Origin: Phaeobacter sp. B1627
Lineage (GTDB): Bacteria > Pseudomonadota > Alphaproteobacteria > Rhodobacterales > Rhodobacteraceae
Assembly: GCF_006265095.1 (NCBI RefSeq)
Contig: NZ_VCNK01000034.1
Span: forward strand, 1 to 61,505
Direction: 5' to 3'
Length of the DNA stretch: 61,505 bases
Both the position numbers and the translations under genes were made by a program. This document shows, piece by piece, positions 8,465 through 40,084 of this stretch; position 1 is the first letter of the stretch, and every line of letters begins with the position of its first letter. The notes below the pieces were generated by a model. It was not told the DNA's origin, ran no database searches, and saw only the letters and a list, made by a program, of their open reading frames with translations.

Positions 8465-8541
8465 TGGCGGACCGAGGAGGATTCGAACCCCCGACCCCTT
8501 GATTCGTAGTCAAGTACTCTATCCAGCTGAGCTATCGGTCC
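8465..8541 (-). tRNA. tRNA-Arg(ACG), copy 1
   Basis: Read on the minus strand this 77-base segment has a 7-bp acceptor stem (GGACCGA/TCGGTCC), a D-arm with AGCTCAGCTGGATAGAG, an anticodon loop CTACGAA giving anticodon ACG (read as ICG for CGN arginine codons), a T-arm GGTTCGAATCC and an encoded CCA end. It is identical to the second copy 320 bases away. Confidence 0.97.
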
Positions 8542-8784: not shown

Positions 8785-8861
8785 TGGCGGACCGAGGAGG
8801 ATTCGAACCCCCGACCCCTTGATTCGTAGTCAAGTACTCTATCCAGCTGAGCTATCGGTCC
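8785..8861 (-). tRNA. tRNA-Arg(ACG), copy 2
   Basis: This 77-base tRNA gene has the same sequence as copy 1, including the encoded CCA, with anticodon ACG. The identity extends only a few bases into the flanks, and the spacer between the two copies is not repeated. It therefore looks like an older duplication kept uniform by selection or gene conversion. Confidence 0.97.
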
Positions 8862-38013: not shown

Positions 38014-39108
38014 TCAGCCCGCTTGCTTCAGAGCGGCACTACGCCGATCTTCGATCGCTTGTGCGAGGGCACGCAACTGGGTCTCAGTTTCTTCCCAGCC
38101 GATGCAACCATCGGTAACCGACTGACCAAAGGTGAGTTTTCTCAAATCGCCGTCTTTTGGCAGATCCTGCCGACCATGCACCAGATGGCTTTCAATCATC
38201 ACACCTGTGATACGGGTCTCGCCGCCAGAGATCTGGCGCGCAACATCACCCAGAACCTCGGCTTGTCGCGCCGGATCCTTGCCGGAATTGGCATGGCTGG
38301 CATCGATCATCACCTGCGGGCGCAGACCATCCATTTCCGCCGTTCTGCAGGCTGCATCAACACTATCTGCATCATAGTTGGTGCCGCCGCCGCCCCGTAG
38401 GATGATATGACAATCAGGATTGCCGGATGTTGCGGCAATCGCAGCCAGCCCCGACTTTGCCAGCGCCAAGAAGTGATGCGGCGTCGCCGCAGACCGTACC
38501 GCATCAATCGCGATCTGAACGTTCCCGCGGGTGCCATTCTTGAACCCGACAGGACAACTCAGCCCGGAGGCCATCTCGCGGTGTATCTGGCTTTCGGTGG
38601 TGCGTGCCCCGATTGCAGCCCAGCTGACCAGATCAGAGAGATACTGTGGCACCGAAGCGTCCAGAAATTCAGTACCGACCGGCACGCCTGTCTCGTTCAG
38701 CTCAAGACACAGCCTGCGGGCAAGCGATAGCCCCTTGTTGATCCGGAAAGACCCGTCAAGATCAGGATCATTGATCAGCCCCTTCCAGCCCGCAATTGTG
38801 CGCGGCTTCTCGAAGTAGACCCGCATCACGATCTCAAGTTGCTGCCCCAGCTCCTCGCGCAGGGGCGCCAGTCGGCGTGCGTATTCGATGGCAGCTTCGA
38901 CATCATGAATCGAACAGGGCCCCACAACGACCGCCAGCCTGTCGTCCGAGCCCTGCAGAATGCGTTGTAGGTTCGCGCGTGCGGCCAGCACAGTCCCGCG
39001 CGCGCCGTCGGTGAGCGGATGCTTCACCGCAAGGGCATCGGGGCAAATCAGTTCCTGCATATCAGTTATCCGGAGGTCTGTGGTCGCGTGGGCGGGCGAA
39101 GTGGTCAT
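38014..39108 (-). CDS. aroG: 3-deoxy-7-phosphoheptulonate (DAHP) synthase, class I
   Basis: The 364-residue enzyme joins phosphoenolpyruvate and erythrose 4-phosphate, the first step of aromatic amino-acid synthesis. It is of the AroF/G/H alpha type: VVVGPCSIHD near 60, RVYFEKPRT near 95, KNGTRGN, LRGGGGTNYD and VMIDASHANSGKD motifs. The AroG-type name is by similarity; F, G or H cannot be separated by eye. It is preceded by a leader peptide ORF and terminator forming a putative attenuator, so supply of charged Phe/Tyr/Trp tRNAs likely controls it. Confidence 0.95.
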   Translation of the reverse strand: MTTSPAHATTDLRITDMQELICPDALAVKHPLTDGARGTVLAARANLQRILQGSDDRLAVVVGPCSIHDVEAAIEYARRLAPLREELGQQLEIVMRVYFEKPRTIAGWKGLINDPDLDGSFRINKGLSLARRLCLELNETGVPVGTEFLDASVPQYLSDLVSWAAIGARTTESQIHREMASGLSCPVGFKNGTRGNVQIAIDAVRSAATPHHFLALAKSGLAAIAATSGNPDCHIILRGGGGTNYDADSVDAACRTAEMDGLRPQVMIDASHANSGKDPARQAEVLGDVARQISGGETRITGVMIESHLVHGRQDLPKDGDLRKLTFGQSVTDGCIGWEETETQLRALAQAIEDRRSAALKQAG

Positions 39109-39156
39109 TGTTTGGGTCCTTTTGAAGAAGAGCCCCTGTCAAACCTGGTCGGAAAC

Positions 39157-39183
39157 GAAAAAACCGCCCGGGTCGGGGGCGGT
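39157..39183 (-). terminator. Attenuator terminator upstream of DAHP synthase
   Basis: On the minus strand ACCGCCC and GGGCGGT pair around a short GC-rich loop and are followed immediately by six T residues. It stands between the leader-peptide stop (39219) and the DAHP synthase start (39108). Its 5' arm CCGCC (39178-39182) could alternatively pair with GGCGG inside the leader ORF (39242-39246), giving an antiterminator. Confidence 0.85.
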
Positions 39184-39218
39184 CTGGTGCAGTAATCTGG
39201 AATTTCTGTCAGTCAGTG

Positions 39219-39296
39219 TCAGAAACGAGAAAACCCTCCGTCCGCCATGTGGCGCGGATAAAAGTAATACCAAAACTGGACATACTGCTGGGTCAT
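39219..39296 (-). CDS. Aromatic-rich attenuator leader peptide
   Basis: A 25-codon ORF (ATG 39296, TGA 39219) encodes a peptide with four Tyr, four Phe and one Trp, including the run FWYYFY at codons 8-13. Leader peptides rich in the regulated amino acid act as sensors in transcription attenuation: ribosome stalling at scarce aminoacyl-tRNA lets an antiterminator form. No Shine-Dalgarno precedes the ATG, but a promoter predicted to start transcription at the ATG itself would make the mRNA leaderless, as known for trpL of Sinorhizobium meliloti. Downstream hairpin and DAHP synthase fit the model. Confidence 0.85.
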   Translation of the reverse strand: MTQQYVQFWYYFYPRHMADGGFSRF

Positions 39297-39302
39297 GGCG
39301 AA

Positions 39303-39331
39303 ACGCTAGCCGAGATTCGCAACTCTGTCGA
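39303..39331 (-). promoter_or_regulatory. Putative promoter of the aromatic leader
   Basis: On the minus strand TCGACA (39331-39326) and TAGCGT (39308-39303) are separated by 17 bases. Seven bases after the -10 lies the A of the leader ATG (39296), so transcription would begin at the start codon. Confidence 0.55.
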
Positions 39332-39445
39332 TCCCCATTTCCACATGTTTTCCCCCACAGAAGGCAGCTGGCGCTGGAACTGTCAGCGATCAGTGAGACA
39401 GAGCTTCAGGCTGGCTGGTTCGTTTCCCCGGATCATAGCACGGGC

Positions 39446-40084
39446 CTAATTTGCGGCCGAACGGCCATAGCCTGGACGGCCAGTCCCGCTTTGTGCGACG
39501 TCAAAATTCCATACGATGATCAGGTTTGTGATCAGCGCACCGATGAAGGAATAGAGCAGCTGACCGGGCGACAACACCAGCGCAGCGGCGGCAAAAACCC
39601 CCGCATCAATTAGCAACTGAAACCAGCCCGCCTTAAACCCGCTGCGTTGCTCGATCAGAATGCCCAGAATGGTCATCCCGCCGGCCGAGGCGTTGTGGCG
39701 AAAGATCGCGATCAATCCAACTCCGCTACAGGCACCGCCCAGGACGGCCGCGAGAGCAGGGCTCAGGGTGTTGAAACTCATGTACACAGGCAGGATCTGA
39801 GCACCGGCGGAAATTCCGACCACCACAATGATCGTCCGCACGGCAAATCCGGCACCGCGTTTGGCCCACGCAAGGATCAGAAAGGGCAGGCCGATTGCGA
39901 TGAACAACGGCCCGAATTCAATCGGCAGCAGGTAGGATAACAGCAAGGCCATCCCAGCCGTCTGCCCCGTCACCAAACCCGCCGATTTCAAGAATACGAC
40001 GCCAAGACTGCACATGAGGATCCCGAACAGCAATCCTTGCAGGTCGAATAGCAAGTGGGGAGATTTCGGCGACGACAGCGTCAT
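39446..40084 (-). CDS. YitT family membrane protein
   Basis: The 212-residue protein has five to six hydrophobic segments and the YitT_membrane pattern, with GILMCSLGVVFLKSAGLVTGQTAGMALLLSY early and GVGLIAIFRHNASAGGMTIL in the middle. The C-terminal cytosolic domain found in longer relatives is absent. Transported substrate unknown. The start at 40084 was chosen because upstream residues are not hydrophobic and look non-coding. It is divergent from the epimerase gene. Confidence 0.8.
   Translation of the reverse strand: MTLSSPKSPHLLFDLQGLLFGILMCSLGVVFLKSAGLVTGQTAGMALLLSYLLPIEFGPLFIAIGLPFLILAWAKRGAGFAVRTIIVVVGISAGAQILPVYMSFNTLSPALAAVLGGACSGVGLIAIFRHNASAGGMTILGILIEQRSGFKAGWFQLLIDAGVFAAAALVLSPGQLLYSFIGALITNLIIVWNFDVAQSGTGRPGYGRSAAN

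Follow-up and report, generated by a model that had tools for sequence, protein, structure and literature searches.

DAHP synthase (DAHPS) controls entry into aromatic synthesis. In Phaeobacter sp. B1627, a gene for this enzyme lies on the 61,505-nt stretch of DNA that was analysed here as a whole (contig NZ_VCNK01000034.1; hereafter the window), and it is preceded by a short reading frame rich in aromatic codons and by a hairpin with a T-run. The locus raises the question of whether these elements regulate the gene and, if so, where their transcript begins and which amino acids are sensed. A first-pass annotation, made from the sequence alone, had read them as a leaderless, aromatic-codon, ribosome-mediated attenuator of DAHP synthase. 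Our analysis supports this core reading, which came through most of the alignment with relatives, and from sequence evidence we put the probability that the DAHPS leader attenuates transcription through a translating ribosome, on a leaderless leader mRNA, at about 0.87.

The locus and its parts

The DAHPS gene (38014-39108, minus strand) encodes a protein of 364 aa that matches PF00793 and TIGR00034 (E 3.1e-151; 503 bits against a curated cut-off of 173.2), so that the DAHP synthase annotated downstream of the terminator is identified as class I-alpha (aroFGH type). The closest solved chain is 5cks, a Phe-sensitive DAHP synthase. A YitT-family gene lies upstream and a Do/DegP-like protease gene downstream, and the DAHPS gene is probably monocistronic. 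The genome contains a single match to this DAHPS and one class II DAHP synthase elsewhere (contig C65:42870-44180). The 420 nt upstream of the class II gene hold five short ORFs, the best of which has three scattered aromatic residues, and no T-run; no attenuator leader was found there, and in this genome the class I gene alone carries one. Elsewhere in the window, two tRNA genes of equal score lie on the minus strand at 8468-8541 and 8788-8861, with starts 320 nt apart.

The leader peptide ORF was found as first described, at 39219-39296 on the minus strand. Its 25 codons plus stop encode MTQQYVQFWYYFYPRHMADGGFSRF, with four Tyr, four Phe and one Trp (9 of 25 residues aromatic), and the candidate stall codons FWYYFY occupy codons 8-13 (39258-39275), of which 10-13 are predicted to be productive by ribosome-walk folding. 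Six aromatic residues in a row occur in this leader alone among the window's 477 ATG-first ORFs of 10-60 aa, and no such run was seen among 14,021 ORFs from 20 simulated order-1 Markov windows. The peptide had no NCBIfam or Pfam match. The DAHPS gene has a Shine-Dalgarno-like AAAAGGA in front of it (39117-39123, minus strand); the leader has no such sequence.

The segments of the putative switch lie on the same strand. Segment 1, the protector arm (UCCGC, or CGCC in an alternative register; 39251-39258), was delimited by the minimum-energy fold, pair probabilities and the alignment. Segment 2 (GGCGGA, 39241-39246) is predicted by folding to pair with segment 1 or, under a predicted stall, with segment 3 to form the antiterminator. 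Between segments 2 and 3, a spacer hairpin (GUUUCUG/CAGAAAU, 39202-39226) is present in both the minimum-energy and the stalled-state folds. Segment 3, the 5' arm of the terminator (AGACCGCCC, 39177-39185), was located by sequence and by a terminator scan, which also gave segment 4 (39158-39169), consisting of the 3' arm GGGCGGTTT (39161-39169) and the U-tract (six T, 39158-39163). The GGCGG at 39242-39246 and the CCGCC at 39178-39182 are both where the annotation had put them. The terminator itself, with a stem of nine pairs (39161-39185) and a loop of 7, is present with its six T and is slightly wider (39158-39185) than the interval of 39157-39183 first assigned to it.

Taken singly, these parts stand out little in the window. 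The terminator scan of the stretch gave one terminator-like site against 0.6 expected, the 5-bp GGCGG:CCGCC match had p=0.32 relative to shuffled leader sequence, and the stability of the whole RNA was not significant (z -1.74; 13 of 200 shuffles equally good). The window-only tests of duplex, terminator, promoter and stability are weak; it is conservation rather than single-sequence statistics that carries the case.

Conservation and the start of the leader

We assembled 125 DAHPS loci, comprising the best 80 of a genome-collection scan, which therefore favour close homologues, and a further 45 that came from genome searches. Of the 125, 85 passed an automatic filter calling for an ATG-initiated ORF with an aromatic cluster followed by a GC stem with a T-run; four further loci (L068, L110, L122 and L123) were added by eye from the sequence, so that a leader and terminator precede DAHPS at 89 of 125. 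They are present at all 34 loci of the family group, which we define as 32 loci of the window's family plus two Leisingera loci (72% and 75% DAHPS identity) that are nested among them on the tree. They are likewise present at 23 of 23 other alphaproteobacterial loci with intact upstream sequence, among them Devosia, Bradyrhizobium, Mesorhizobium, a Hyphomicrobiales assembly and further members of the class, and at 32 beta, gamma or unplaced loci (Burkholderia relatives, Oxalobacteraceae, Xanthomonadales and others). Within the 125-locus set, the leader was not detected in Enterobacterales, Pasteurellaceae, Vibrionaceae, Neisseriales, Methylotenera, Chromatiaceae and others. Two loci, L115 and L038, have shortened upstream regions (175 and 61 nt, respectively).

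The alignment with relatives that the first-pass annotation had proposed as a check was run, and the leader, the aromatic block, the terminator, GGCGG and the promoter-ATG spacing were all conserved. In the family-group alignment, 85.3% of cells are paired in the CGCC/GGCG helix of segments 1 and 2, and in the 6-pair core of the terminator stem 97.1% of cells are paired across 34 sequences. The parts, their conservation and their spacing are established as features of the sequence. Class I DAHPS was found in 17 of the 18 genus genomes (the one without it is 67% complete) and in 14 of 385 in a class sample; in the family it is rare, with 17 of 394 genomes, and most relatives therefore cannot be aligned.

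A promoter with a 17-bp spacer had also been proposed, and its boxes are present: a predicted -35 box, TCGACA (39326-39331, minus strand), and a -10 box, TAGCGT (39303-39308), followed by 6 nt and then the leader ATG. This ATG begins at 39296, 7 nt beyond the -10 box, and its first base is the predicted transcript start. The spacing of these boxes to the ATG is conserved in alphaproteobacteria. At 51 of 55 alpha loci, the -35 box has the end of its GACA 29-30 nt upstream of the leader ATG, against 0.3 expected (L122 and L123 left out; the upstream of two in-frame ATGs taken in L090 and L103). The family group contributes 33 of these, out of 34 loci, and the other filter-passing alpha loci 18, out of 21, with one more of the latter at 31 nt. 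The searched -10 motifs, which were picked after the sequences had been inspected, end 6-7 nt before the leader ATG at 33 of 34 family-group loci. At all eight Xanthomonadales loci (L012, L020, L026, L028, L034, L045, L052 and L080), TATCA[AC] ends 7-9 nt before the ATG.

The missing Shine-Dalgarno sequence, on which the annotation had also remarked, proved to be a general trait. A search of positions -20 to -4 for an SD-like tetramer (AGGA, GGAG, GAGG or AAGG) gave a hit before the leader ATG at 1 of 72 loci, as compared to 61 of 72 before the DAHPS start; 13 of the 85 filter-passing loci were excluded from this count, since the script had not found their DAHPS start codon. The conserved promoter-ATG geometry and the absence of SD-like sequences fit a leaderless leader in alphaproteobacteria. 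A wider claim can be entertained tentatively, and with clearly less confidence than the core reading: that an old attenuator family has been kept with class I-alpha DAHPS across alpha-, beta- and gammaproteobacteria, and that the absence of a ribosome-binding site is conserved and functional, with SD-less or leaderless initiation setting ribosome-polymerase timing and the released leaderless small mRNA perhaps also acting in trans.

Alternatively, the same switch might sit behind a conventional short 5' UTR, with leaderlessness an artefact of promoter guessing. A consensus sigma-70 scan of 38950-39480 detected no promoter, which leaves some room for this explanation, as does the situation in Burkholderiales: at 17 of 22 loci, the likeliest -10 box (TATAAA or TATAGT) ends 25-39 nt upstream of the chosen ATG, so that the 5' UTR there is apparently short. 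Some of these loci (e.g. L018, L021 and L022) also have an in-frame ATG further upstream. However, a short UTR accounts poorly for a GACA held at a fixed distance from the ATG across the alpha loci and for the near absence of SD-like tetramers before it, and we consider it unlikely for the Phaeobacter leader.

The predicted switch and the amino acids it may sense

From these parts we infer the transcript start, the stalling, the switch itself and its signal, as follows. The A of the leader ATG would be the first base transcribed, and a ribosome would load on the RNA 5' end without a Shine-Dalgarno sequence. With sufficient charged tRNA, the ribosome would pass the aromatic block and segment 2 would pair with segment 1; segment 3 would then be free for segment 4, and termination would occur some 50 nt ahead of the DAHPS gene. 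Under a shortage of Tyr-tRNA or Phe-tRNA, the ribosome would stall on codons 10-13 and cover segment 1, leaving segment 2 to pair with segment 3, which would block the terminator and allow DAHP synthase to be made.

Folding of the window RNA is in keeping with such a switch. In the free RNA, segment 2 (nt 51-55) pairs upstream with segment 1 with a probability of 0.80, and the probability of pairing between segments 2 and 3, P(2:3), is 0.00; with segment 1 masked, P(2:3) is 0.95. The mean P(2:3) changes upon masking from 0.24 to 0.96 in 33 family-group loci and from 0.59 to 0.94 in 52 others, and masking lifts it by more than 0.1 at 29 of the 33 and 26 of the 52. When a ribosome was walked along the 28 family-group leaders of 25 aa, P(2:3) exceeded 0.5 in 27 of 28 at codon 11; for codons 12 and 13 the numbers were 25 and 10, and at codons 14-24 no leader exceeded it. 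Values above 0.5 were also seen at codon 1 (10 of the 28), codons 5-9 (18-19), codon 10 (21) and the stop codon (9); in these models, some loci reach a high P(2:3) outside the aromatic block as well. In the window and most family-group loci, a mutually exclusive antiterminator is favoured in silico by a stall at the regulatory codons.

The pairing of GGCGG with CCGCC had been presented as giving the classical antiterminator switch. It is predicted under a stall at codons 10-14, but it is only one part of the switch: given the assumed footprint, a ribosome that has reached the stop codon (nt 76) leaves GGCGG (nt 51-55) uncovered, and the protector at 39251-39258, which folding predicts, is needed as well. 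A variant design was seen in Burkholderiales (e.g. L021, L023 and L017), where an antiterminator of 8-9 bp forms even in the free RNA. Many Burkholderiales leaders have their stop codon nearer to segment 2; with this placement and 2:3 pairing in free RNA, segment 2 itself may come to lie under the terminating ribosome.

The annotation had further suggested that all three aromatic amino acids are sensed. In the window, the productive codons fell within 10-14 under each of five footprint sizes, always with at least one of the Tyr-Tyr-Phe-Tyr codons 10-13, and every setting gave a P(antiterminator) of at least 0.9 for one or more codons in this range. With the ribosome at Trp9, P(antiterminator) was at most 0.05 under all five sizes; the family-group mean at this position is 0.55-0.82. 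These values come from assumed footprint sizes and from equilibrium rather than co-transcriptional folding. Since Trp9 is unproductive and codons 10-13 are productive, a Tyr/Phe sensor is predicted in the window species. All 85 filter-passing leaders contain Phe and Tyr; Trp is present in 71 and absent from 14. The suggestion is therefore partly borne out, in the folding of the window sequence for Tyr and Phe but not for Trp.

Codon use fits a division of the leader into two parts. Across codons 2-14 of the 28 family-group leaders with 25 aa, variation peaks at the third position (entropy 0.91 versus 0.44 and 0.68 at the first two); in codons 15-25, home of segments 1 and 2, it does not (0.54 versus 0.51 and 0.72). 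This pattern fits a constraint on the peptide in the early codons and on the RNA in the later ones. In the pooled 85 loci, Phe is encoded by TTT in 181 of 275 cases in the leaders (66%) versus 75 of 500 in the DAHPS genes (15%), and Tyr by TAT in 156 of 234 (67%) versus 160 of 456 (35%). In the window species, this bias of the leader is weak because the three neighbouring genes use TTT for 17 of 38 Phe codons; TAT accounts for 8 of their 15 Tyr codons. Rare codons or low structure may tune stalling.

The variability of the later codons also bears on whether attenuation of DAHPS is only part of the function, with the terminated RNA or the peptide acting in trans as well. The precedent is trpL (rnTrpL/peTrpL) of Sinorhizobium meliloti, reported to be a leaderless attenuator RNA that begins at the leader ATG (PMC7298713, PMC10117765). 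Both leaders are alphaproteobacterial, and both RNAs start with the leader ATG, as predicted in the case of DAHPS; they differ in that trpL has Trp codons, 14 aa and trpE(G) as its target, whereas the DAHPS leader has a Phe/Tyr block, 25 aa and DAHPS. In being a small leaderless mRNA, the predicted 140-nt termination product would resemble rnTrpL, as the latter is described in the same two sources. However, the lack of a third-position excess in codons 15-25 fits an RNA constraint rather than a selected C-terminal peptide, and we regard an additional role in trans as improbable.

Compensatory stem changes had been hoped for in relatives. Within the family group they are nearly absent because the stems hardly vary: no double change was found between segments 2 and 3, and the terminator showed one covarying pair in three cells (alignment A1, where the register of L110-L112 is partly lost at segment 2). 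In the wider set, the segment-2 duplex was better than in shuffled leaders (p<0.05) at 44 of 85 loci, including 4 of 33 in the family group, the window not being one of them. At 78 loci (7 of the 85 were dropped, having no GGCGG or CCGCC anchor), the bases flanking GGCGG paired with those flanking CCGCC more often than with permuted partners at offsets -3 (p 0.02), -2 (0.0005), -1 (0.01) and +1 (0.001), kinship being ignored in these values, and not significantly at +2. At offset -2, for example, 38 pairs were observed and 26.2 expected, again irrespective of relatedness. By subgroup, only offsets -2 and -1 in the beta/gamma loci stay significant, and none does in the family group or the other alphaproteobacteria.

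Known systems and the distribution of the proposed attenuator

The trpL, pheL, hisL and ilvL attenuators of Proteobacteria combine a leader rich in the regulated amino acids with a protector, an antiterminator, a terminator and a biosynthetic gene. The DAHPS leader has the same architecture, and differs in that its target is DAHP synthase and that no Shine-Dalgarno sequence precedes the leader. By its sequence, it would work like a classical attenuator, and SD-less, mostly leaderless initiation appears to be its most interesting conserved trait. At gathering scores, an Rfam search with the window and ten relatives reached no leader family; Phe_leader (RF01859) aligned over its length with 21.2 bits, below its gathering cut-off of 55.

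The annotation knew of no attenuator sensing all three aromatic residues for DAHP synthase in this group; one that senses an aromatic residue ahead of DAHP synthase is not unprecedented. The aroF (DAHP synthase) operon of Corynebacterium glutamicum is preceded by the AroR leader, a Phe-Tyr-Phe attenuator that is reported to respond to limitation for Phe and not for Tyr (PMC11802643, citing Neshat 2014; also PMC4046766). It too is a ribosome-mediated attenuator with an aromatic leader before a DAHP synthase gene. C. glutamicum, however, is an actinobacterium, and its system is compared here by description rather than by sequence; on that description, the Phaeobacter-type leader has a longer aromatic block, often with Trp, and spans three proteobacterial classes. 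In Shewanella, cis-regulatory RNAs have been predicted before aroF and aroH, with older E. coli literature as support (PMC2659441). These RNAs likewise precede gammaproteobacterial DAHP synthase genes; they differ in being predictions by machine learning, from a genus outside the 125-locus set. In a search that left most subscription literature aside, we found no published conserved DAHPS attenuator for alpha- or betaproteobacteria or Xanthomonadales, and the accessible text of start-site papers on Bradyrhizobium and Burkholderia and of a Burkholderia small-RNA paper, supplements aside, does not mention the DAHPS gene under the names tried.

A gene-linked RNA switch of this kind would explain DAHPS control in Rhodobacteraceae-type bacteria, Bradyrhizobium, Devosia, Burkholderia relatives, Oxalobacteraceae and Xanthomonadales, and would give Rfam one more family. 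It would also supply a natural series, with alphaproteobacteria and Xanthomonadales leaderless by geometry and most Burkholderiales having an apparently short SD-less 5' UTR, in which one can ask why attenuator leaders dispense with ribosome-binding sites. The Corynebacterium DAHPS attenuator, as described, makes the idea less new and turns independent versus shared origin into a testable question.

On a quick tree of the 125 enzymes, in which the shortened loci L115 and L038 count as leader-less, the attenuator label changes 5 times, versus 31.4 times with shuffled labels. The notion of a plain terminator of upstream transcription beside a chance, non-regulatory small ORF can draw on how common a hairpin with a T-run is by itself (0.6 expected in the stretch), but can hardly be sustained when different classes share the aromatic block, its spacing and the terminator, the attenuator tracks the gene on this tree and none of 57 testable alpha loci has the gene without the leader.

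A covariance model of the family-group leaders had matches in 14 of 248 family genomes, all of them DAHPS-bearing and with the sites just upstream of the gene; because many of these 14 sites had trained the model, the search tests specificity only. An extra match in genome G144 (E 0.003), near what by eye is an rpoC-like gene and without an aromatic leader, was taken as chance, as was, after inspection, a weak match in the genome of Phaeobacter sp. B1627 (E 9.6). A further weak match in the latter genome had an E of 2.8, and the DAHPS site was its only significant match.
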